From contig JAFTUS010000167.1 of NCBI GenBank assembly GCA_017466125.1, forward strand, positions 1 through 35,516: a stretch of 35,516 nt of DNA. The letters run 5' to 3'. Below are positions 15,489-35,516 of the stretch, in pieces. This DNA is from Lentisphaeria bacterium (GTDB taxonomy: Bacteria > Verrucomicrobiota > Lentisphaeria > Victivallales > Victivallaceae). The position numbers and the translations under genes were made by a program. Each line of letters begins with the position of its first letter. Position 1 is the first letter of the stretch. The notes below the pieces were generated by a model. That model worked only from the letters and a program-made list of their open reading frames with translations, had not been told where the DNA came from and did not search any database.

Positions 15489-16895
15489 TTAATAGCGGTA
15501 GGTTTCCGGCTTGTAAGGACCATCGACGGAAACACCGATGTAATCCGCCTGCTCCTGCGTCAGCGTGGTGAGTTTTGCTCCCAGTTTCGCCAGGTGGAGA
15601 CGGGCGACCTCTTCATCCAGTTTCTTGTCGATAAGGTAAACGCCGACAGCACGTTCCGGGTTGCGGGCAATGTCGATCTGCGCAAGCGTCTGATTGGCAA
15701 AACTGTTGGACATCACAAAAGAGGGGTGGCCGGTGGCACAGCCGAGATTGACCAGACGCCCTTCCGCCAGCAGATAGATGCAGTGTCCGTCAGGGAACGT
15801 GAAACGGCTCACCGGACATTCACTGCCCTTGATGACCATTTTTTCCACGCCGGGGTAACTGTTCAGATCCGCCACGTCGATCTCATTGTCGAAGTGACCG
15901 ATATTGCAGACGATCGCCTGATCTTTCATGCCCGCCATGTGTTCGGCGGTGATGATGTGGCAGTTTCCGGTGGTGGTCACATACAGATCCGCCTGCGGTA
16001 GAGCATCTTCCACGGTACAGACCTGAAAACCTGCCATACATGCCTGCAATGCGCAGATGGGATCGACTTCGCTGACCAGCACTCTGGCACGTTCATTGCG
16101 GAGAGCCTCCGCACAGCCCTTGCCCACATCGCCGTAACCGCAGACCATGACGGTTTTGCCCGCCAGCATCACGTCCAGTGCGCGTTTGATGCCGTCGGTC
16201 AGGCTGTGGCGGCAGCCGTAGATGTTGTCGAATTTGCTTTTGGTAACGGAGTCGTTGACGTTGATTGCCTGAAACAGCAGTTCGCCCTTTGCCTGCATCT
16301 GGATCAGACGGTGGACTCCCGTAGTGGTCTCTTCGGAAACGCCCTTTACTTTGGCGGCAACCTTGTGCCAGTGGCGGGGGTCTTCCGCAAGGACTCTTTT
16401 CAGCAGGGCATTGATGACCTGCAATTCATAGACATCGGTGGGTTCGTCCAGAATGGCGGGATCATCTTCGGCGGCAACGCCGCGGTGGATGAGCAATGTG
16501 GCATCTCCGCCGTCATCCACGATCTGGTCGGGACCGGAGTTGTCGGGCCAGGTGAGGGCTTTGTAAGTACACTCCCAATACTCTTCAAGGGTTTCGCCTT
16601 TCCATGCGAAAACAGGAGTGCCGCCCGCGGCGATCGCCGCTGCTGCATGGTCCTGCGTAGAGAAAATATTGCAGCTCGCCCAGCGCACATCGGCACCGAG
16701 AGCCTTGAGGGTTTCGATCAGAACTGCGGTCTGGATGGTCATGTGCAGACTGCCCATGATTTTGATGCCTTTGAGCGGCTGTTCTGCTCCGTATTTGGCG
16801 CGGGTCGCCATCAGACCGGGCATCTCCTGTTCGGCAATGTTGATCTCTTTGCGGCCGAAATCAGCCAGATTAATGTCGCGGACTTGATATTCCAT
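15489..16895 (-). CDS. ahcY: Adenosylhomocysteinase
   Basis: The enzyme hydrolyses S-adenosylhomocysteine to adenosine and homocysteine with bound NAD. The 468-aa product has the expected family segments: [22 protein letters not shown] at the N-terminus, [13 protein letters not shown], the NAD-binding [29 protein letters not shown], and the C-terminal KPETYRY tail that reaches the partner subunit's cofactor. The start at 16895 has AGAGGTG six bases upstream, and the upstream in-frame GTG at 16904 is less likely. It lies 12 bases after the adenosine kinase gene in a metK, kinase, ahcY operon. Confidence 0.96.
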
Positions 16896-16907
16896 ATAAT
16901 TCACCTC

Positions 16908-24729: not shown

Positions 24730-27171
24730 ATGAAAAAATTTCTCCTCGCTTTTTCTTATCTGTTACTGGTCTGTCTGACTCCGCTTGCGGGGGCGCCGGT
24801 AATGGAGTTGGAAGTCGATTTTTCCAACCCATCCTGGAAATCGCTCATCAAACCCGCATGGGGGAAATATCCCCGGGTCGAGGGAAATGAACTGGTTTTC
24901 GGGCCGGGATCGTTCTCCGGGATGCCCATTGTCCCCATCGCTCCGGGAAGTGTCATCCATGTGGAGTTTGATGTGCAGAATACCCATATCACTCACGGCG
25001 GAAAAGAGGGCTGGAAAACGGCCGCTGTCCAGATGGCATTTTTCTCCGGCAACAAGGAGGTCGGGCATACCGACCTGTACAACAGCGGGAAACCCACCAA
25101 CGGCAAAAAACATGTGACTTACTCCATCCCGTGCAAAAACACCGGTTTCCGGCTTGCGTTCGGCAGCTATGGCAGAGATGGAGAATTCCGCATTTCCAAC
25201 ATAAAGATCAAAGTGGAGGTCCCCGGAAAAGATTTGGAACGGGACGGCTCTTTTTTCGGTATGTTCGGAATCAACGACTGGTTTATCCATCGGGAAAAAA
25301 GTGACTGGGACAAGCTGCCGCTGGGCGGCAAAAATAATATCCGGGTCGTCAAAAATATATTTCCTTCCCGGGGCGGTACGCTCGAGATCAAAGACGGCGG
25401 TACCGTTGTCAGTCAGATATTTCCCTATAACGGGGAAGGACTCATCGTCGGCGCCTGGTACGCCCAGAAAAATATAAAACGCAAGGCCGGTGCGCCTCCA
25501 TGGGCAAATGCCGGGATCCAGCTGGTCTATCTGGATGAAAAGGGCAAGTATCTGGGGCATCGGGATATTACGGCCTCGCTGCTGGAGGGCGACCGTCCGT
25601 GGGAATATCATCAGTGGGTCTATGCTCCGGGGACTTTGAGCCGCCGGGTAAAAGGCATCCAGCTCTGGCTGCGGATCTGGGGCGGCAACACCGGAACAGC
25701 ATGGTTCGATGATTTTTCGGTCATCATCCAGGGGAAGAGCGAGGCGCGCAATTACAATTCCAAGGCCGGGACGCTCAAACTTTCCGTTGCGGAAAATGCT
25801 CCTCAACTTCCGAAGATCTGGAACGGGATCGATCTTGCCAATGCCCGTCAGACCGATCACTACCGTGTTTACGATGCCATCGCCCGGCTGAAACGGGAAG
25901 GGGGCATTGAGTATTTGCGTCTCCGGGAATTCATGGCCGCTCCGATTTCTGCCAAAGGGGTCAGGCCGGATGGTTCCATCGTGCATGACTTTGGCAAAGT
26001 CGATCACTATCTCGACCGGCTGGTTTTCGACTTGGATCTGAAACTGGTCCCGACCATCCAGACCGTGCCGCCCTTTCTGCAGGAAAAAGGGCAACCCCAT
26101 ATCCCGAAAGATTACGGGATCTGGAAAAAGTGTGTCAAAGGTCTGGTGCATCACTGGATCGCCCGGTATGGCAAAGAACGGGTCTCTGAGTGGATCTTTG
26201 AGTGCTGGAATGAACCCGGTTCTGATTTCTTCAAGGGGACCGATGCGCAGTTCTGCAGGATTTTCGTCACCTATCTGCAGGCGTTGACCGAAGTGGAAAA
26301 AGAAGCCGGTATCAAGCTGCGTATCGGGACGCCTTCCTGCGCAATGCGGGAACTGCTTTCGCTGTGCATGGCCGAAGCGCAGAAAGCCGGTCTGGATAAA
26401 GCTGTTACCGATGCCAGCACCCATATTTACGGCGGGTATGCCGGTAGTCTTGCGCTCTTTCCCGAAGGGATCAAAAAGCTCCGCCGGCAAATGGCACCTC
26501 ACTCCGGAAAAGATATCCCTGTCCATATTACCGAGTACAGCGGTTCGGCAATGGCCACGCCGCATCATGATTCGCAGGTCGGGGCGGCATCTTTTGTCAA
26601 GATCAACCGGATGATGCTGGATATGGGCGTGACCCGTTCCTATTATTACAGTGTGATCGATCAGCCCTATCTGAATCTGGATCGCCACTATACCGGAGAT
26701 CACGGCATGTTCATGCACTACGGCCCTGTTCCCAAAGCCGTGTTCAATGCGCTGGTCTGTCTGAACAAACTCTCCGGGAAACGGATGACCGTTACCGCTT
26801 CCAGTGAGCCGTTTGATGCGATCGCCGCCGTGGCGGATGATGGTACGGTGCGGGTCGTGGTCACGACCTTCAGCGAGGAAGAGACCGATCTGATCAAAAA
26901 AGTCCCGGTGACGCTTGAGATCGATTGGAAGAAGGACGAAATGCCCCACATTGCGGAAATCATCTATGTCGATTCGGCCCGGGGCAACGGTTATGTGGCA
27001 TTTCTGAAGGCCGGAAAGCCGAAATTCAAGGAAAATCCGGATACGTCAGCCTACTTCAGAGCTGCGGAAATGAAAACGGAAAAACTCCCGGCATGCCGGA
27101 TCGGAAACGGCAAATTGACCGTCACTGTGGAGATGGAACTCAACAGTATATCTTATATTACATTAAAGTAA
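24730..27171 (+). CDS. Secreted GH39-like glycoside hydrolase with CBM-like domains
   Basis: The 813-aa product has a signal peptide (1-22). Two beta-sandwich, CBM-like regions follow (about 25-165 and 175-335, the second ending in GTAWFDDFSVIIQG). A GH-A TIM barrel spans about 360-690. Glu495 in ECWNEPG is the acid/base and Glu602 in HITEYSG the nucleophile. The C-terminal beta domain (about 700-813) is typical of GH39. The nearest described activities are beta-xylosidase and iduronidase-type, but the substrate is not determined. AAGGAGA precedes the start. It is cotranscribed with two pseudopilins upstream. Confidence 0.85.
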   Translation: MKKFLLAFSYLLLVCLTPLAGAPVMELEVDFSNPSWKSLIKPAWGKYPRVEGNELVFGPGSFSGMPIVPIAPGSVIHVEFDVQNTHITHGGKEGWKTAAVQMAFFSGNKEVGHTDLYNSGKPTNGKKHVTYSIPCKNTGFRLAFGSYGRDGEFRISNIKIKVEVPGKDLERDGSFFGMFGINDWFIHREKSDWDKLPLGGKNNIRVVKNIFPSRGGTLEIKDGGTVVSQIFPYNGEGLIVGAWYAQKNIKRKAGAPPWANAGIQLVYLDEKGKYLGHRDITASLLEGDRPWEYHQWVYAPGTLSRRVKGIQLWLRIWGGNTGTAWFDDFSVIIQGKSEARNYNSKAGTLKLSVAENAPQLPKIWNGIDLANARQTDHYRVYDAIARLKREGGIEYLRLREFMAAPISAKGVRPDGSIVHDFGKVDHYLDRLVFDLDLKLVPTIQTVPPFLQEKGQPHIPKDYGIWKKCVKGLVHHWIARYGKERVSEWIFECWNEPGSDFFKGTDAQFCRIFVTYLQALTEVEKEAGIKLRIGTPSCAMRELLSLCMAEAQKAGLDKAVTDASTHIYGGYAGSLALFPEGIKKLRRQMAPHSGKDIPVHITEYSGSAMATPHHDSQVGAASFVKINRMMLDMGVTRSYYYSVIDQPYLNLDRHYTGDHGMFMHYGPVPKAVFNALVCLNKLSGKRMTVTASSEPFDAIAAVADDGTVRVVVTTFSEEETDLIKKVPVTLEIDWKKDEMPHIAEIIYVDSARGNGYVAFLKAGKPKFKENPDTSAYFRAAEMKTEKLPACRIGNGKLTVTVEMELNSISYITLK

Positions 27172-27177
27172 AAGGAA

Positions 27178-27248
27178 ACGTCCAAAATCCGTATTTTGCC
27201 GTTTGTACGATGCTTTTCAAACATGCGTCGTACTCTCCGGCTGGACGT
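27178..27248 (+). other. Two-tier stem structure between hydrolase and isomerase genes
   Basis: In the 114-base gap, an outer stem ACGTCC (27178-27183) / GGACGT (27243-27248) encloses a 9-bp inner stem GTACGATGC (27205-27213) / GCGTCGTAC (27225-27233, one G-T pair). It could be a processing site or partial terminator within the operon. There is no T-tract. Confidence 0.4.
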
Positions 27249-27285
27249 CTCAAATCGTTTCTGCAAAAAATAAGGTCAGATAGCA

Positions 27286-28161
27286 ATGGAAACAAAATTG
27301 TCATGGTCATTCCCATGGTTTTCGCCGGATCGGGACGAACGGGTGCGGCGGCTTGATGTCATCGCAGATGCCGGGATACGGAAATTGGTCTTGCCCGGTG
27401 AGTTTCTGCAATGGTCGCTGTTTGATCCCCGCTATTTCCTGGAGAGCATGGCGGAGTTCCGGGAACGGGCTTTGATCCCTCATGATGCGCATGCCGTCTG
27501 GGGAGACTGGAGCGATCCGGCACTGCCGGTGGAAACGTTCCGTCCGTGGATGATCGCACGACATGCGGCCCTCCTGGCCATGCTCGGCGGCGAGGGGGTG
27601 AAAACACTGACATTCCACGCCGGGAATACCTATCCGCAGATCTACGGGGAGTATCCGCTGGAACACTACCGCCGGATGCTGACCGCAAGTCTGGAGGTGC
27701 TGCTGCCGGAAGCGGAACGATACAATGTGGTTCTCGCTCTTGAAAACTCCTGGACTCCGCTGTGCCATTCCCGGCACCTTGTCGATATTGCCGGGGCGTT
27801 TCATTCCCCCTGGCTGGGGCTTTGTTATGACTCCGGTCACGGGCATCTGATGGAACAGGGACGGGAGCTGCCCAATATCGTCCCGGAATATTGGCAGATG
27901 ATCGGAGCGGAGGTGGAGTGGGAAGCCGGACTGATCGAGAAATTCCGGCCATTGCTGGTGACCTGCCATCTCCATGATAATCATGGCGTCACAGACAGTC
28001 ATCTGCTGCCGGGGCAGGGGAGTGTGGACTGGGGGAGGATCCGGAGAAATCTTGCCGATGCTCCCCGGCTTATCTCCATTCAAACCGAAACGGCAATGCC
28101 GGAAGTGACGGCCGAAAGAGCCGTTGAGCTGAAAAAATGCTTTGAAACCTTGTTTTTATAA
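27286..28161 (+). CDS. Sugar phosphate isomerase/epimerase-like TIM-barrel protein
   Basis: A 291-aa protein of the xylose-isomerase-like / AP endonuclease 2 superfamily. Metal-ligand motifs are in the expected order: TFHAGNTYPQ, LALENSW, GLCYDSGHGHLM, CHLHDNHG and, near the end, ISIQTE. It would interconvert a ketose and its epimer or isomer, or process the oxidoreductase's product. The start has AAGG about ten bases upstream. It is the last gene of the carbohydrate operon. About 120 bases of AT-rich sequence separate it from the tRNA genes. Confidence 0.85.
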   Translation: METKLSWSFPWFSPDRDERVRRLDVIADAGIRKLVLPGEFLQWSLFDPRYFLESMAEFRERALIPHDAHAVWGDWSDPALPVETFRPWMIARHAALLAMLGGEGVKTLTFHAGNTYPQIYGEYPLEHYRRMLTASLEVLLPEAERYNVVLALENSWTPLCHSRHLVDIAGAFHSPWLGLCYDSGHGHLMEQGRELPNIVPEYWQMIGAEVEWEAGLIEKFRPLLVTCHLHDNHGVTDSHLLPGQGSVDWGRIRRNLADAPRLISIQTETAMPEVTAERAVELKKCFETLFL

Positions 28162-28281: not shown

Positions 28282-28366
28282 GCTCGGGTGGCGGAATTGG
28301 CAGACGCGTATGGTTGAGGTCCATATGGTGTAAACCTTGGGGGTTCAAGTCCCCCCTCGAGTACCA
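28282..28366 (+). tRNA. tRNA-Leu(GAG)
   Basis: An 85-base tRNA with encoded CCA. The acceptor arm GCTCGGG pairs fully with CTCGAGT (two G-U pairs). The anticodon stem TATGG / CCATA encloses TTGAGGT with anticodon GAG. The T-arm is GGGGG-TTCAAGT-CCCCC. The gene is intact and has the promoter listed just before. Confidence 0.95.
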
Positions 28367-28387: not shown

Positions 28388-28463
28388 GCCTACATAGCTC
28401 AGTTGGTAGAGCACATCCTTGGTAAGGATGAGGTCACCAGTTCGACTCTGGTTATCAGCTCCA
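28388..28463 (+). tRNA. Chimeric tRNA-Thr(GGT)
   Basis: The D-arm, anticodon arm (CATCC / GGATG, anticodon GGT), T-arm and CCA are all good. The acceptor arm fails: 5' GCCTACA against 3' TATCAGC has three mismatches in seven. The 3' arm would pair perfectly with GCTGATA, the form I would expect for a clostridial tRNA-Thr. The 5' arm expects TGTAGGC. The gene therefore joins the 5' part of one tRNA to the 3' part of another somewhere in 28395-28452. As written it is unlikely to be functional. Confidence 0.88.
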
Positions 28464-28501
28464 AAAAATCGAAGCACTTCTTCGGAAGTGCTTTATTTTT
28501 T
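28462..28501 (+). terminator. UUCG-loop terminator, copy 1 of a 40-bp direct repeat
   Basis: A 9-bp stem AAGCACTTC / GAAGTGCTT with a TTCG tetraloop, followed by TTTATTTTTT. It begins at the end of the tRNA CCA. The full 40 bases are identical to 29559-29598. Confidence 0.9.
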
Positions 28502-28507
28502 GTGTTT

Positions 28508-28720
28508 GTGTCCGTAAGGACACAACATCGTTTGTGAGTTTACTCGCAACATCATTTATCCGAAGGATAACATCATTCCGCTTTAGCGGACACAAAACGA
28601 TGTGGCTTCGCCAACGATGTTACACCTTACTGCGTAAACGATGTTTTACCTTCGGTAAAAACGATGTTGCGTCTACGACGCAAATACACGATTGCGTGCG
28701 AGATGTTGCACTTCATGCAA
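28508..28720. repeat. Array of about ten small hairpins with CATCGT/ACGATG spacers
   Basis: Hairpins with 3-5-base loops lie at 28508-28523 (GTGTCC arm, GTAA loop), 28534-28547, 28556-28570, 28577-28590, 28603-28613, 28627-28637, 28644-28660 (TTTTACC, TTC), 28667-28683 (TTGCGTC, TAC), 28687-28698 and 28706-28720. Arms differ from one hairpin to the next but are complementary (only one G-T pair, in the second). The linkers share a core: CATCGT or CATCAT in the first part, then its reverse complement ACGATG from 28597 on, so the array flips orientation between the fourth and fifth hairpins. The last arm supplies the -35 box of the next gene. It is not a CRISPR, since the unique parts are palindromes. 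Confidence 0.92.
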
Positions 28721-28734
28721 ATATATGGTATAAT
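28706..28734 (+). promoter_or_regulatory. Promoter of the four-helix-bundle gene
   Basis: TTGCAC (28706-28711), 17 bp, TATAAT (28729-28734). The -35 box is inside the last hairpin of the array. Confidence 0.75.
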
Positions 28735-28759
28735 CAATATTGCAAGAGAGGTGATAGCA

Positions 28760-29116
28760 ATGAAAGAAGACAAACTTTCTGATTTATCTATGCAATTATC
28801 TGTTGATGTTTTGAAATTGACAAAAGAATTAAGGTTAAAACACGAAATTGTTATTTCAAATCAGATTGGCAGAAGTGCAACGAGTGTTTGTGCTAATATC
28901 GCAGAAAGTAAATATGGTCATAGTCGTGCTGATTTTATTGCTAAACTCGAGATTGCGTTGAAAGAAGCTAATGAAACAGGTAAATGGCTTGAAATGCTTT
29001 TGAAATCGGACTATATTGATAAAGCAACCTATAAATCTATTGGTAAGACTTGCTCGACAATTCGCATATTATTGATTGCTTCAATTAAAACTGCAAAAAG
29101 TAAATTGAACAAATAG
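28760..29116 (+). CDS. Four-helix-bundle protein (S23/IVS, bAvd-like)
   Basis: A 118-aa protein of the family found in 23S rRNA intervening sequences and, in relatives, as the Avd accessory of diversity-generating retroelements. The conserved middle is recognisable: SNQIGRSATSVCANIAESKYGHS, then DFIAKLEIALKEANETGKWL. All predicted secondary structure is helical. The start at 28760 has AGAGGTG about seven bases upstream. The gene is very AT-rich compared with folT and folC downstream. It follows a small-hairpin array directly and is bounded by 40-bp direct repeats. No reverse transcriptase is nearby. Its role is not known; nucleic-acid binding is likely from the family. Confidence 0.88.
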   Translation: MKEDKLSDLSMQLSVDVLKLTKELRLKHEIVISNQIGRSATSVCANIAESKYGHSRADFIAKLEIALKEANETGKWLEMLLKSDYIDKATYKSIGKTCSTIRILLIASIKTAKSKLNK

Positions 29117-29133
29117 TGCAATGAGGCAACTTT

Positions 29134-29517
29134 ATGAAATTATTTAATTCTTTCAAATCAAACAAAGAACTCATTATCAAAACGGAATTTGTAAATGTTT
29201 ATTCTGTAAAATGTGATAAAAAAGAATATACAATTATTATTCCAAGAAAAGTTGCTAACAAACATACAATTATTCACTTTATAGATAATACTATTTGTTG
29301 GGAACAAGTTCCTCGCTTTTGGAGATTGGCAGGTAGACGATACGGTGATAAAATTCCGATATACAAATTCGACGGAAAAATTTTGAACACAATATTTGTT
29401 CTCAAAGGAAATCCCGGCGGTGACGAGGGATTAGATAATGGTATTTTTAGAAGTTCTAAAAAATATGATGAAAATTATGTGAATTGTATAAGCTATATGA
29501 AGTTCAAAGGAATGTAA
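29134..29517 (+). CDS. Unknown protein in the hairpin-array cassette
   Basis: I do not recognise this 127-aa product. It is Lys/Ile/Asn-rich, has no signal peptide or membrane helix, and seems to be mainly beta-strand (KEYTIIIPRKV, HTIIHFIDNTICW). A Gly-rich stretch GNPGGDEG lies near residue 95. GAGG lies seven bases before the ATG, and the gap from the four-helix-bundle gene is 17 bases, so the two are cotranscribed. Low GC matches that gene and not folT or folC. It may be part of the same mobile cassette. Confidence 0.65.
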   Translation: MKLFNSFKSNKELIIKTEFVNVYSVKCDKKEYTIIIPRKVANKHTIIHFIDNTICWEQVPRFWRLAGRRYGDKIPIYKFDGKILNTIFVLKGNPGGDEGLDNGIFRSSKKYDENYVNCISYMKFKGM

Positions 29518-29558
29518 AAATCAGGCTTTTAAACTAATTCTTTTTTGGTCCGTAGACT

Positions 29559-29598
29559 CAAAAAATCGAAGCACTTCTTCGGAAGTGCTTTATTTTTT
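29559..29598 (+). terminator. UUCG-loop terminator, copy 2 of the 40-bp direct repeat
   Basis: Forty bases identical to 28462-28501, with a 9-bp stem, TTCG tetraloop and T-tract. It ends the four-helix-bundle unit. The two copies are 1097 bp apart. Confidence 0.92.
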
Positions 29599-29600
29599 TA

Positions 29601-29629
29601 TTGTACTTCTAAGTATTTTGTGTTATAAT
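29601..29629 (+). promoter_or_regulatory. Promoter of the Lrp/AsnC gene
   Basis: TTGTAC (29601-29606), 17 bp, TATAAT (29624-29629), starting three bases after the terminator repeat. Confidence 0.75.
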
Positions 29630-29666
29630 CAAAGAAAAATGCTTTAAACTTTTCGGAGGTTATATA

Positions 29667-30104
29667 ATGGATAGTATAGATTTCAAAATACTCGAATGCC
29701 TGAAGGTAAATTCACGTATGAACGCTACGGCAATCGGGGAGAGAATAAACCTTTCTACGTCGGCGGTTCTTGAAAGAATAAAGAAGCTTGAAGCGTCAAA
29801 CGTTATTGTGAAGTATACTACTGTTATCGACAGCGAAAAGATAGGGAAGGGAATTACCGTTTTCCTGTCAGTAAGCCTTGAGCATCCCAAGTTTGACGAG
29901 AACTTCAGAGCACAAGTCATGGAAAATGAAGAAATAGTGGAATGCCACTACGTGACGGGCGACTATGACTATATGCTCAAATGCACAACTGCTTCAAGTA
30001 AAACCCTTGAACAGCTTCTCAATTTTGTGAAGAGCATCAACGGCGTCAGCCACACCAAAACTCTTGTGGTAATGCGCACCACAAAAAATGAATTTACGTA
30101 CTGA
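29667..30104 (+). CDS. Lrp/AsnC-family transcription regulator
   Basis: A 145-aa protein with an N-terminal helix-turn-helix (DFKILECLKVNSRMNATAIG, then LSTSAVLERIKKLE) and the RAM/AsnC ligand-binding domain (VECHYVTGDYDYMLKC, and the C-terminal strand TKTLVVMRTTK). The length is normal for single Lrp-type regulators that sense amino acids. The start has a strong CGGAGG site. It has its own promoter and is followed by the folate riboswitch unit, to which it has no evident link. Confidence 0.93.
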   Translation: MDSIDFKILECLKVNSRMNATAIGERINLSTSAVLERIKKLEASNVIVKYTTVIDSEKIGKGITVFLSVSLEHPKFDENFRAQVMENEEIVECHYVTGDYDYMLKCTTASSKTLEQLLNFVKSINGVSHTKTLVVMRTTKNEFTY

Positions 30105-30145
30105 TTATATTGACAAAATTATACTCTTGTGATATATTATCTCTT

Positions 30146-30261
30146 GCAGAGTAGAGTTAACTGCGTTAGCAAAATTAAATTTGCTTACAGTGCTTATCGG
30201 ACGGGGAGTTGCCGATTTGACGAAGGGTACGCCTGCGGTAGTTTAACTCGCATCCCGCTGC
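30146..30261 (+). promoter_or_regulatory. Tetrahydrofolate (THF) riboswitch
   Basis: The conserved THF aptamer elements appear in order: a GCAG closing arm with AGAGTAG, then TGCGTTA, AGTGC, CGGACGGGGAGTTGCCG, GACGAAGGGT, CGCCTGCGG and a closing CATCCCGCTGC. The P1 arms GCAG (30146-30149) and CTGC (30258-30261) pair. Its place before a folate ECF transporter gene is the classic context of this riboswitch in Clostridia. Confidence 0.92.
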
Positions 30262-30276
30262 TACAATTAAGAGAAC

Positions 30277-30327
30277 AATACCTCCTAATGGTAGCATATT
30301 ATTATTTTGCTCCATAAAGGAGGTATT
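30277..30327 (+). promoter_or_regulatory. Riboswitch expression platform sequestering the folT ribosome site
   Basis: AATACCTCC (30277-30285) is fully complementary to GGAGGTATT (30319-30327), which is the folT ribosome site. When paired, translation start at 30332 is blocked, and the following T-run could also end transcription. It supports OFF control by folate. Confidence 0.8.
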
Positions 30328-30331
30328 TTTT

Positions 30332-30853
30332 ATGGATAAAAAACTGAGTGCAAAAGCCTTGACAACCTGTGCCATTCTTGTGGCAATGAGCGTGATTATC
30401 GGTATTTTTTGCAAAAACTTCATGAACTTCGGTGGAGGGCTGTTCAGAGTCACATTTGAAAATCTGCCTATCATCTTATCGGGTATCCTTTTCGGGCCCC
30501 TAGTGGGAGGCTTTGTGGGTGTTGCTACCGACTTTATCAGCTATTTTCTGTCGGCACAGATTTATCCCCCAAACCTTATCGTCACCCTCGGCGCCGCCTC
30601 TATCGGCGTGGTGTCGGGTATAGTGTCAAGAACTGTGGCGAAGAAAAGAGGATTTTTGCAGATTATTCTCTGTGAGATATCGGCGCACGCTATAGGCTCT
30701 CTTATAATCAAATCTATCGGACTTTACACCTTCTACGGCATAGCGGTGCTTTGGAGAATTCCCCTTTACACCGTTATAGTTGCAGTTGAAACGGCGGTTA
30801 TATGCTTGCTTTATAAGAACACTAATTTCAGAAATACTTTTCTCAACCGCTGA
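30332..30853 (+). CDS. folT: Folate ECF transporter S component
   Basis: The membrane substrate-binding subunit for folate uptake by an energy-coupling-factor transporter. The 173-aa product has about six hydrophobic helices, with the family's early ILVAMSVIIGIF segment and FRVTFENLPIILSGILFGPLVGGFVGVATDFI, a typical S-component N-terminal half. The energising ATPases and EcfT are not here, as in group II ECF systems. It is controlled by the THF riboswitch, and folC follows 17 bases later, so uptake and polyglutamylation are coupled. Confidence 0.92.
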   Translation: MDKKLSAKALTTCAILVAMSVIIGIFCKNFMNFGGGLFRVTFENLPIILSGILFGPLVGGFVGVATDFISYFLSAQIYPPNLIVTLGAASIGVVSGIVSRTVAKKRGFLQIILCEISAHAIGSLIIKSIGLYTFYGIAVLWRIPLYTVIVAVETAVICLLYKNTNFRNTFLNR

Positions 30854-30870
30854 GAATTTTGGAGGCTATT

Positions 30871-32136
30871 TTGAATTATAACGAAACCCTTGAATACATC
30901 CATTCGGTCTCCTGGAAGGGAAGCCGTCCCGGTCTTGAGAGAACGAGAGAGCGTCTCTATCTGATGAAAAACCCCGAAAAGAAGTTAAAGTTTGTCCATA
31001 TCGCAGGCACTAACGGAAAAGGCTCAACAGCCTCAATGACCGCGAATATTTTAGAGAAGGCAGGCTATACTGTTGGTCTTTACACCTCTCCATATATTTT
31101 CTCCTTTAACGAAAGAATGAGAGTGAACGGTGAAAATATTTCGGATAGCGACCTTGTCTCAGTTACCGAATTTGTAAAACCGCTTGCCGAGAAAATGACC
31201 GACAGCCCCACCGAATTCGAGCTTGTTACCTGCATCGCCTTTGAATACTTTTACCGCAAGAAATGCGATATAGTAGTACTTGAAGTAGGCATGGGCGGAG
31301 AGCTTGACTCCACAAACGTTATCGAGCCCCCCGAAGTGTCGGTTATTACCAATATAGGACTTGACCACACCGATTTCCTTGGAGATACCCTCGAAAAAAT
31401 TGCAGAAACTAAATCTAAAATTATAAAAGAAAATTCTATTGCTGTTCTCTATCCTTCCACCAAAGGCGTGGAAGAAGTGGTTGAAAAAAGATGCCATGAC
31501 GTGAATTCGAGGCTTATAAAAGCAGATTTTGACGCCGTTATATCGAAAGAAAAATCTCTTTCAGGTCAGACCTTTGACTATAAAGGCTTAAAAAATGTAA
31601 AGCTCCCGCTGCTTGGCAAACATCAGCTAAATAACACAGCAACGGTTTTTGCAGTTATTGACGGACTTCGCAGTAAAGGGTGGAATATTTCGGATACAGC
31701 CGTCAGAGAGGGAATTGAGAGCGTCAGATGGCAGGGCAGATTTGAGCTTGTGTCAGAAAGCCCCACCTTCATTGTAGACGGCGGACATAACCCGCAGTGC
31801 GCCGCGTCACTCTTTGAAAATGTTAAGAGCTACCTCGGCGGCAAAAAGCTCGTAGTCCTCACAGGCGTCCTCGCTGATAAGGATTTTGAGAGTATGTACG
31901 CCGATATGGCAACCCTGACTTCCGAGTTTGTAACCGTCACCCCTCCGAACCCCAGAGCCCTCAGTGCCGAAAAGCTCGCCGAATATCTGACTCGCTTCGG
32001 TAAGACGGCAACTCCTTGTAAAACTATTGACGAAGGAGTCCGTCTCGCAAAAGAAAAAGCAGGGGAGAAGGGCGCCGTCCTCGCCTACGGCTCGCTTTAT
32101 ATGGTAGCGGATATAGAGAATGCCGCACGTTCTTAA
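30871..32136 (+). CDS. folC: Folylpolyglutamate synthase / dihydrofolate synthase
   Basis: This Mur-ligase-family enzyme adds glutamates to folates and so traps imported folate in the cell. The 421-aa product has HIAGTNGKGSTASMTANIL (ATP P-loop), GLYTSPYIFSFNERMRVNG, then LEVGMGGELDSTNVI, NIGLDHTDFLG and the C-terminal DGGHNPQC. The start is taken as TTG at 30871 with GGAGG five bases upstream; an earlier TTG at 30859 contains the ribosome site itself. It is cotranscribed with folT under the THF riboswitch. Confidence 0.93.
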   Translation: MNYNETLEYIHSVSWKGSRPGLERTRERLYLMKNPEKKLKFVHIAGTNGKGSTASMTANILEKAGYTVGLYTSPYIFSFNERMRVNGENISDSDLVSVTEFVKPLAEKMTDSPTEFELVTCIAFEYFYRKKCDIVVLEVGMGGELDSTNVIEPPEVSVITNIGLDHTDFLGDTLEKIAETKSKIIKENSIAVLYPSTKGVEEVVEKRCHDVNSRLIKADFDAVISKEKSLSGQTFDYKGLKNVKLPLLGKHQLNNTATVFAVIDGLRSKGWNISDTAVREGIESVRWQGRFELVSESPTFIVDGGHNPQCAASLFENVKSYLGGKKLVVLTGVLADKDFESMYADMATLTSEFVTVTPPNPRALSAEKLAEYLTRFGKTATPCKTIDEGVRLAKEKAGEKGAVLAYGSLYMVADIENAARS

Positions 32137-32151
32137 AAAACGGAGAATGAA

Positions 32152-32766
32152 ATGAAAATACTTTTTTTACTGCTCCTTGTTGTTTTTAACTTCACCTTTG
32201 CGGGTCAAGTTGAGGACAGACCGCAAGAGCAAATATTAAAAGAAGAAACAAAGAATGACAATGTATGTTATCACTTAAACGCCGACGACATAAACGGAGG
32301 AATGGCACAACAATTCCTGAACGGAGAAATTACGATTGATAATTACGATGGAAAGAATAATCTCACCGTTTCTGAAATTGGATATTTTGGAACGTCGGCG
32401 GAATATGCCCTTGCAGATTTAGAGGGCGACGGAGCAAGAGAGCTTGTTGTTGTCTTTGACCCTTCGGGAGACAGAGTAATAATTGACGTAACCGAAGGCG
32501 TAAGCACAGCGTATTATCTTCCAATCAGATGTTATAACGACATAAAGAAAGACGGTACGGCAAGCTGGAGCGCCAGCGCTTTTTATAACGGAATTCGTAA
32601 AATAATTTTTTCCAACGGTCAAGTGGAATTTGAAGATATTATCGTTCACAATACTTATGATGGAATATTTAAAGTAAACGGAAAAGACGTGAGCGAGGAA
32701 GAGTGTAACAACGCTTTAGCTTTGCAACGTGAAAAAGAATCCGTCGAATGGATAGAAATTGAATAA
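32152..32766 (+). CDS. Secreted protein of unknown function
   Basis: The 204-aa product has a hydrophobic signal peptide (1-17, FNFTFAG). A short FG-GAP/VCBS-like strand, ALADLEGDGARELVVVFDP, lies near residue 90 and resembles a calcium-binding repeat, but only one copy is present. I do not recognise the rest. CGGAGA sits before the ATG, and it starts 15 bases after folC, so it is cotranscribed and ends in a terminator. Confidence 0.7.
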   Translation: MKILFLLLLVVFNFTFAGQVEDRPQEQILKEETKNDNVCYHLNADDINGGMAQQFLNGEITIDNYDGKNNLTVSEIGYFGTSAEYALADLEGDGARELVVVFDPSGDRVIIDVTEGVSTAYYLPIRCYNDIKKDGTASWSASAFYNGIRKIIFSNGQVEFEDIIVHNTYDGIFKVNGKDVSEEECNNALALQREKESVEWIEIE

Positions 32767-32768
32767 AT

Positions 32769-32796
32769 AAACGGACAGAGAAATTTGTCCGTTTTT
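32769..32796 (+). terminator. Intrinsic terminator of the folT-folC transcript
   Basis: The stem AAACGGACA / TGTCCGTTT with an 8-base loop is followed by T residues, three bases after the stop codon of the secreted-protein gene. Confidence 0.85.
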
Positions 32797-32827
32797 GAAT
32801 TATAACCGCAAAACTATATACTAACAT

Positions 32828-32860
32828 AAAACGACAGATGTACTTCGCATCTGTCGTTTT
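32828..32860 (-). terminator. Terminator of the XRE gene
   Basis: A 12-13-bp stem, arm AAAACGACAGATG in part, with a short loop at about 32841-32847. It lies one base after the minus-strand XRE stop and can work in both directions. Confidence 0.7.
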
Positions 32861-33079
32861 CTATTCATTCATTTCTCGTTTTTCCGTGCGACCTAAAAGG
32901 TAATCGAGAGAAACCTTGTGAAAATCTGCTATTTTAATAAGTGTAGTCGTTGGAATATCAATGTCTCCTCTCTCATAGTTGCTATAAACACGCTGACTGC
33001 AAGAGAGAATTTTACCCATTTCACTTTGCGTCAAATTTTTATCTTCGCGTAAATTTCTTATACGCGGATAATACGGCAT
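32861..33079 (-). CDS. XRE-family helix-turn-helix repressor
   Basis: A 72-aa protein consisting only of a Cro/CI-type helix-turn-helix: RIRNLREDKNLTQSEMGKIL, SCSQRVYSNYERGDIDIPTT, then LIKIADFHKVSLDYLLGR, the common clostridial form. The start has GGGAGAA upstream. It is divergent from the cohesin-dockerin gene, and two palindromes in the gap are likely its operators, so it probably represses that gene. Confidence 0.9.
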   Translation of the reverse strand: MPYYPRIRNLREDKNLTQSEMGKILSCSQRVYSNYERGDIDIPTTTLIKIADFHKVSLDYLLGRTEKREMNE

Positions 33080-33161
33080 AAACTACTTTCTCCCTTCATA
33101 TAGTCATTCTATGTGATAATTATACAAATAAGTTTTTTGTTCAAGGGTACGATTTGTCACA

Positions 33162-33208
33162 ATAGCGGAAAATTCGCTATTGACTTTTAGCGGAAAATTC
33201 GCTAAAAT
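33162..33208 (+). promoter_or_regulatory. Promoter with two AGCGGAAAATTCGCT operators
   Basis: TTGACT (33180-33185), 17 bp, TAAAAT (33203-33208). One palindromic site at 33162-33180 ends on the -35 box. The second (33188-33204) fills the spacer and overlaps the -10 box. Both have arms TAGCG and CGCTA around GAAAATT and are 25 bp apart. Binding would shut off the promoter. Confidence 0.8.
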
Positions 33209-33242
33209 ATTTTGTGTATAAAAAACAAGGAGAATATATCAA

Positions 33243-34733
33243 ATGAAAAAGAGAACACTTTCATTTTTTCTAACAGTGAATTTATTAATACAGCTTGTTT
33301 CTCTGCCAATAATTGCAACAACAGATATCATTGCTGACACCAACGAAACAGAGGGAGTTGGTTGGGTAGAGGGAATTGAAACTCCTGCAATTCCTTTGCC
33401 TGATGAGGAAGAACCTGAAGCTTATACTGTAACGTGGAAAAACTATGACGGCACAGTCCTTGAAACCGATACGGATGTAGCCTGCGGTACAACGCCAACT
33501 TATGACGGCGTAACACCCGCAAGAGAGGCAACCGCAGAATACACCTACATCTTCTCAGGCTGGACACCTGTGATTTCAACTGTAACAGGCGACGTAGTTT
33601 ATACTGCTGCTTATACAGCCGAGGCTATATCCAATGAAATCACATACCCATTGGAAGTGGATGAGATTCCAAGAATAGACTGGGCAGTCACAGAAGACGA
33701 AGAAGCTTATACTGTAACGTGGAAAAACTATGACGGCACAGTCCTCGAAACTGATACGGATGTAGTCTACGGTACAGCTCCCACCTACGATGGTGATGTA
33801 CCTGCAAGAAGCGCAACCACACAATACAGCTATACTTTTAGCGGCTGGACTCCCGCAGTTGCCGAAGTAACAGAAAATATAACTTATACGGCTATCTTCA
33901 CGGAAACCGTCAACAAGTACACGGTAACTTGGACTAATTATAACGGTGCGGTTCTTGAGACCGATGCCGACTTAGCATATGGCACAACGCCAACTTATGA
34001 CGGTGTAACCCCCGAAAGAGAAGCAGATGAAGAATTTACCTACACCTTCTCGGGCTGGACGCCTACGGTTTCGGCAGTAACAAGCAACGTGACCTACGTT
34101 GCAACCTATATTTCCAATGAAATAATAAAGCCGGCCTCTGACGTTAAGCTTACAATGACAGGAGGCAGGGCAAGACCCGAGACCGAAATCGTAATACCTG
34201 TAACTATTTCTGATAACACTGGGCTGGCTGGACTTCAGCTTTCGCTGTTCTATTCCGACAGTCTCACCTTGAAGTCCGTAGAGACAGGGGACGCACTTAA
34301 CGGTCTTACCTTTACTTCTCCCGGGAATTTTTCAGCTAACCCCATAACTCTTTTGCTTGCAGGAGAAACAGCCGACGACAGCAACGGAACAGTGTTTAAT
34401 CTTACATTTACAGTCAATGCCGATACCCCCGAAGGCGATTATGACATAAATATAACTGTGGTGGATTCTTACGATAACGATATGGAAACGGTGCTTGTTT
34501 CAAACACATCTGCAACAGTAACAGTAGTTCACTATACACCCGGTGACGTAAATGGAGACGGAAATGTCACTGCCCGTGATATTACCGCCCTAAGCCGATA
34601 TATCGCAGGCGGTTATAATATAACAGTTGTGGAAGCGGCGCTTGACATCAACCGTGACGGAAATGTTACTGCCCGTGATATTACAACGCTCAGCAGATAT
34701 ATCGCAGGCGGCTACGGAATAGAACTTAAATAA
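33243..34733 (+). CDS. Secreted cohesin- and dockerin-containing protein with InlB-like repeats
   Basis: A 496-aa secreted protein. Signal peptide about 1-25. Three beta repeats (about 60-130, 155-220, 227-293) share YTVTWKNYDGTVLETDTDV and FSGWTP and look like InlB-B/bacterial repeat domains. A cohesin-like domain spans about 299-430 (PVTISDNTGLAGLQLSLFYS). The C-terminal dockerin (about 433-495) has two calcium loops, DVNGDGNVTARDIT and DINRDGNVTARDIT. Cohesin and dockerin on one chain mark a scaffold adaptor of cellulosome-like systems. AAGGAGA precedes the start. It is controlled by twin XRE operators. Confidence 0.88.
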   Translation: MKKRTLSFFLTVNLLIQLVSLPIIATTDIIADTNETEGVGWVEGIETPAIPLPDEEEPEAYTVTWKNYDGTVLETDTDVACGTTPTYDGVTPAREATAEYTYIFSGWTPVISTVTGDVVYTAAYTAEAISNEITYPLEVDEIPRIDWAVTEDEEAYTVTWKNYDGTVLETDTDVVYGTAPTYDGDVPARSATTQYSYTFSGWTPAVAEVTENITYTAIFTETVNKYTVTWTNYNGAVLETDADLAYGTTPTYDGVTPEREADEEFTYTFSGWTPTVSAVTSNVTYVATYISNEIIKPASDVKLTMTGGRARPETEIVIPVTISDNTGLAGLQLSLFYSDSLTLKSVETGDALNGLTFTSPGNFSANPITLLLAGETADDSNGTVFNLTFTVNADTPEGDYDINITVVDSYDNDMETVLVSNTSATVTVVHYTPGDVNGDGNVTARDITALSRYIAGGYNITVVEAALDINRDGNVTARDITTLSRYIAGGYGIELK

Positions 34734-34744
34734 AGGAGATAACT

Positions 34745-35516
34745 ATGAAAACGAAAATACTTTCTTTATTTTTTGCCTCTCTTTTGATTATTCTAACTGT
34801 GTCGGTTACGGCATTTGCTACCCTTGATTATAGTGACGAAAGCGAAACAGAAAGCCCTGGTTGGGAAAATGAGGAGTCAGAAACCGTAGTGACGATAGGT
34901 GACGTGACAGTATCGAAGGGACAGAGTACAGTAGATGTTCCCATCACTGTTTCGGGTAACACAGGACTTGCAGGACTCCAGCTTTCCATGACGTACAGCG
35001 ATGGACTTGAGCTGACAGCTATAGAAAGAGGGGACGCTCTTTCGGGACTTACCTATACAAAGCCCAATGACCTTACAGCAAATCCCATAACTCTTGTCCT
35101 TGCAGGGGAAGTGGCTGATGATACCAATGGAACCTTATACACTTTGACTTTTTCGCTTCCAAACGATACTGCCCAAACTTATTCGGTGGACGTTGAAGTT
35201 ATCGATGCTTATGACAACGATATGGAAACAGTTGCCGTTACTGTTGACAGCGGAATTATTAATGTGGAAAGCGTAATAAGTGCCGTTGGCAAATCACTCC
35301 TTCTTGACGGCGGTATAGGTGTCAAGGTGTATTTCGAGTATGACCCCGACGTTGTATCAATTGACGGCGTTACGGCAGAAGCAACCGTCATAAATTCTGA
35401 TAACGGCTTATCTGACACCGTAGAATTAGAGCTGTTCGAGGCAGAAAACCTTGAAAACACGGTTTATGGCATAATCGAGGTATCGCCTAAGGACTATGAA
35501 AATATCACAATGAACG
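34745..35516 (+). CDS. Secreted cohesin-family protein, cut by the window end
   Basis: Only the first 257 codons are inside the window and there is no stop. Signal peptide about 1-25 (VSVTAFA). A cohesin-like domain spans about 48-175 (PITVSGNTGLAGLQLSMTYS, ANPITLVLAGEVADDTNGT, YDNDMETVAV). It is a clear paralogue of the one in the previous gene. A further beta domain begins about 180. AAAGGAG lies eight bases before the ATG and the gap to the previous stop is 11 bases, so both are one operon. A dockerin may lie downstream. Confidence 0.85.
   Translation, partial: MKTKILSLFFASLLIILTVSVTAFATLDYSDESETESPGWENEESETVVTIGDVTVSKGQSTVDVPITVSGNTGLAGLQLSMTYSDGLELTAIERGDALSGLTYTKPNDLTANPITLVLAGEVADDTNGTLYTLTFSLPNDTAQTYSVDVEVIDAYDNDMETVAVTVDSGIINVESVISAVGKSLLLDGGIGVKVYFEYDPDVVSIDGVTAEATVINSDNGLSDTVELELFEAENLENTVYGIIEVSPKDYENITMN

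Follow-up and report, generated by a model that had tools for sequence, protein, structure and literature searches.

A probable metagenomic misassembly joining two bacterial genomes inside a tRNA-Thr(GGT) gene

Introduction

tRNA genes are frequent integration sites for mobile elements, and an element that integrates site-specifically at a tRNA 3' end normally reconstitutes a functional tRNA. The locus described here resembles such integrative elements and genomic islands in that foreign DNA starts within the tRNA or right at its end. The locus also resembles the chimeric contigs of short-read metagenomes, in which pieces of two genomes have been joined in error (PMC8201837, PMC8172020), here probably through a sequence common to both. 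Assembly from k-mers can yield paths that match no real genome, and metagenome-assembled genomes (MAGs) include chimeric contigs (PMC8172020, PMC8201837). The DNA analyzed here, referred to as the window, comprises 35,516 bases and is an entire contig of a genome assembly of 3.83 Mb (224 contigs, 99.7% complete, 6% contaminated).

Results

ARAGORN and Rfam agree in calling a tRNA-Thr(GGT) gene at 28388-28463 on the + strand. Its acceptor arms, GCCTACA and TATCAGC, are mismatched at pairs 3, 4 and 6 (C-A, T-C and C-A), and its predicted fold lacks the acceptor stem that is present both in the intact clostridial copy and in one copy from the window's genus; with three of seven acceptor pairs broken, a functional tRNA is not restored at the junction. 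The first six bases, GCCTAC (28388-28393, + strand), can be assigned to the tRNA-Thr(GGT) native to the window lineage, since the 5' arm GCCTACA pairs with TGTAGGC in G001, G004, G006, G007 and G022 and is the ordinary acceptor arm of the window's family. The last part of the gene (28436-28463, + strand) is clostridial, and is identical to the tRNA-Thr of L039 and L044, both from Clostridia. Only three bases of the window gene, 28390, 28391 and 28393, differ from the clostridial gene, which starts with GCTGATA, and identity with the clostridial contig, followed leftward, ends inside tRNA-Thr at 28394, tRNA base 7. The switch would be contained in the stretch at 28394-28435 (tRNA bases 7-48, + strand), the 42 bases of which are common to the clostridial and to some same-family tRNA-Thr genes. 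On this comparison, the switch point lies between 28394 and wherever the two real tRNA-Thr genes cease to match. GC content drops from 0.54 at 27001-28000 to 0.33 at 28501-29500. An earlier note, made from the letters of the window, had pointed to acceptor arms unpaired at three positions in seven, to a 3' arm fitting a clostridial GCTGATA partner and to a shift in composition at the tRNA-Thr; all three observations were borne out, and L039 and L044 carry exactly the partner that had been proposed. The search for a second tRNA-Thr(GGT) in the window genome returned none, the nearest match being a Thr(CGT) gene on another of its contigs (C193).

The kinship of the left side was judged against genomes of the window's genus and family. 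The tRNA-Leu(GAG) gene of the window lineage (28282-28366, + strand; called by ARAGORN and also by Rfam) shares 94-98% identity with same-genus tRNA-Leu genes, and the non-coding DNA upstream of it shares 79-81% identity with G003, G005 and G006. The window genome has one copy of the SAHH gene (15489-16904), which is 85-90% identical to its counterparts in 8/8 same-genus genomes; together with the tRNA-Leu identity, this rules out that the left half was misbinned from another lineage. Wherever contigs of same-family genomes extend far enough, tRNA-Leu(GAG) and tRNA-Thr(GGT) are followed by tuf, tRNA-Trp, nusG, rplK and rplA. The spacer between tRNA-Leu and tRNA-Thr measures 21 bases in the window, versus 91-110 in most of the genus, 33 in same-genus G004 and 16-18 in other genera of the family. 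At the left contig end (1-132), a 34-base unit is repeated 3.1 times at 100% identity (29-132), and this repeat is possibly the spot where assembly stopped.

The expected continuation of the left side was located on a separate contig of the window genome. This contig, C184 (20,196 bases), carries tuf, tRNA-Trp, nusG, rplK, rplA, rplJ and rplL, and ends 68 bases before the start codon of tuf, about where the tRNA-Thr of relatives ends. Judging from its gene content and from the position of this end, C184 is the broken-off other half of the locus on the left side of the window. It begins just past tRNA-Thr and not within the gene, so that some 27 tRNA bases specific to the lineage are missing from the assembly; this counts against a misassembly. 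No repeat of the tRNA 3' end is seen between the end of C184 and tuf (68 bases), a comparison bounded by the fact that C184 stops there and that the window contig stops before any far junction.

Bacterial genome contigs were scanned with the FolC protein of the window, on the right side, yielding a contig with 99% protein identity. This contig, JAFUKG010000039.1 (L039), is part of a Clostridia MAG recovered from the rectum of a roe deer (isolate RGIG4571). From 28394 to the contig end at 35516, the window aligns to it without gaps and with three mismatches in 7,123 bases (99.96% identity), all of them clustered at 30953-30963; the titles of the matching records bear out the earlier assignment of the right side to Clostridia. 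The clostridial chromosome segment past the tRNA (28464-35516, + strand) encodes a 23S rRNA-intervening-sequence protein, an Lrp/AsnC regulator, a THF riboswitch, an ECF S component, FolC and cohesin/dockerin proteins, as determined with Pfam and Rfam. Gene order is the same as in JAFUKG010000039.1, and the window stops while still inside the clostridial chromosome. JAFUKG010000039.1 carries an intact tRNA-Thr (GCTGATA…TATCAGC), with tRNA-Gly, tRNA-Val and tRNA-Asp in front of it where the window has tRNA-Leu. The tRNA array Phe-Gly-Val-Asp-Thr, followed by the same lrp-folT-folC order, is also found in L044, a diverged clostridial genome of a different species and from another isolate series, which shares its tRNA-Thr sequence with L039. 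The arrangement on the clostridial side is thus genuine and not itself a chimera. The segment is absent from 8/8 same-genus genomes, and the left flank of the window was not found in the clostridial genome. The FolC encoded in the segment is a second copy: the window genome has its own folC on contig C119, with 33% identity between the two.

Several further features were observed in the clostridial DNA. The THF riboswitch (30145-30262; Rfam RF01831, 58 bits) lies directly 5' of the ECF S component and FolC. A perfect 40-base repeat, consisting of the last two bases of tRNA-Thr and its terminator, occurs at 28462-28501 and 29559-29598 (L039:387-426 and 1484-1523), and brackets 1.1 kb that include hairpin-rich DNA, the gene for the 23S rRNA-intervening-sequence protein and a small unknown gene. 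A cluster of short hairpins sharing the core AACGATGTT/AACATCATT lies at 28500-28720, on the upstream side of the gene for this protein. At the corresponding place, L044 has neither the 40-base repeat nor the two genes between its copies, and the bracketed stretch therefore seems to be an insertion into the clostridial genome, accompanied by duplication of the terminator. Elsewhere in the window genome, C96:32560-34212 shows 72% DNA identity to L039 9389-11054, where a protein containing the motif GGGTGRT is encoded. This value is high for distant lineages, and could reflect a widely conserved gene or, possibly, a real transfer.

The clostridial tRNA-Thr was compared with those of the window's family for the longest shared word. 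Genomes of the family in which base 17 of the tRNA is T (G035, G023, G015 and G031) have an exact word of 42-45 bases in common with the clostridial tRNA-Thr, starting at base 7, the very base at which the window turns clostridial. Counting against this route, the listed same-genus relatives have C at base 17, which would leave a shared word of no more than 34 bases, beginning at base 18. We infer that the tRNA-Thr of the window species itself has T at base 17 and thus has 42 or more bases in common with its clostridial counterpart. A word of 42-45 bases exceeds a short k, and a de Bruijn assembler could therefore be misled across genomes at this point. The defaults of MEGAHIT start from small words. 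The clostridial MAG comes from a study that ran both MEGAHIT, with its default word sizes, and IDBA-UD (PMC8199421); the window genome may stem from a different study.

Discussion

The two sides of the window come from different genomes, the right one being 99.96% identical to a Clostridia contig and the left one falling within the genus of the window genome, and the true continuation of each was located elsewhere, on the tuf contig C184 for the left side and in the tRNA array of L039 for the right. The recovery of both parental arrangements, the orphaned C184 and the near-identity to the clostridial contig argue that the contig is chimeric. From these sequence comparisons, we assign a probability of roughly 0.97 to a metagenomic misassembly of two bacterial genomes joined inside tRNA-Thr(GGT). 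The earlier note had proposed such a join in the tRNA-Thr, and the proposal is supported by the two parental arrangements and by the end of C184 at the tRNA position. The misassembly would have arisen in a community where two organisms carried tRNA-Thr(GGT) genes with a long identical word. The assembler would have entered along the path of the window lineage, from tRNA-Leu into tRNA-Thr, and left on the clostridial path, presumably in a step with short k in the de Bruijn graph, so that bases 28394-35516 would derive from a Clostridia genome and the true continuation (tuf, tRNA-Trp, nusG, rplK) would be left as a separate contig in the same bin. The true tRNA-Thr of the window lineage would then start GCCTACATAGCTCAGTTGG and end TGTAGGCTCCA, or near that.

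The alternative that survives best is a real and very recent transfer, in which recombination within the tRNA gene placed clostridial chromosomal DNA between tRNA-Thr and tuf. An insert at that position would likewise leave a tuf contig ending where C184 does, and tRNA genes do attract mobile elements. The putative insert, however, is ordinary clostridial chromosome in the order of the donor contig, 99.96% identical to it and still running at the contig end, which makes such a transfer very improbable. Pfam showed no integrase domain in those proteins of the segment that were scanned (up to the contig end at 35516), in keeping with the earlier note, which had seen no integrase, and searches of the segment against phage and plasmid collections gave no match. 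The destroyed acceptor stem and the failure to find a second Thr(GGT) gene are likewise unlike the usual outcome of integration at a tRNA. Site-specific integration at the tRNA was rejected because no integrase turned up among the proteins scanned, the tRNA was not restored and the insert consists of core chromosome. Less probable again is a genuine, very recent inter-lineage transfer by recombination within the approximately 42 bases of shared tRNA that left the tRNA-Thr broken. Least probable of all, a correct window contig and a chimeric clostridial reference, which is also a metagenome assembly, was ruled out by the retention of the same tRNA array and lrp-folT-folC order in L044 and runs against the presence of tuf after tRNA-Thr in the window lineage's family.

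The gene transfer apparent in the window is, on these grounds, almost certainly not real biology, and the misassembly matters only for quality control. The right-hand 7.1 kb of the window should be taken out of the genome; otherwise clostridial folC, a THF riboswitch and cohesin/dockerin genes would be misattributed to another lineage or scored as horizontal transfer. The locus also suggests a cheap, read-free test for chimeras, in which tRNA acceptor arms that fail to pair are considered together with a housekeeping contig broken off at the expected tRNA position.

Unlike islands inserted at tRNA genes, the window shows no integrase among the proteins scanned, no attachment repeat as far as the contigs reach and no restored acceptor stem, and its foreign DNA is the core chromosome of a known organism. 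Compared with the chimeric contigs of short-read metagenomes, the window shows no difference of kind; the case is unusually well documented, in that both parental arrangements and the orphaned half were found.
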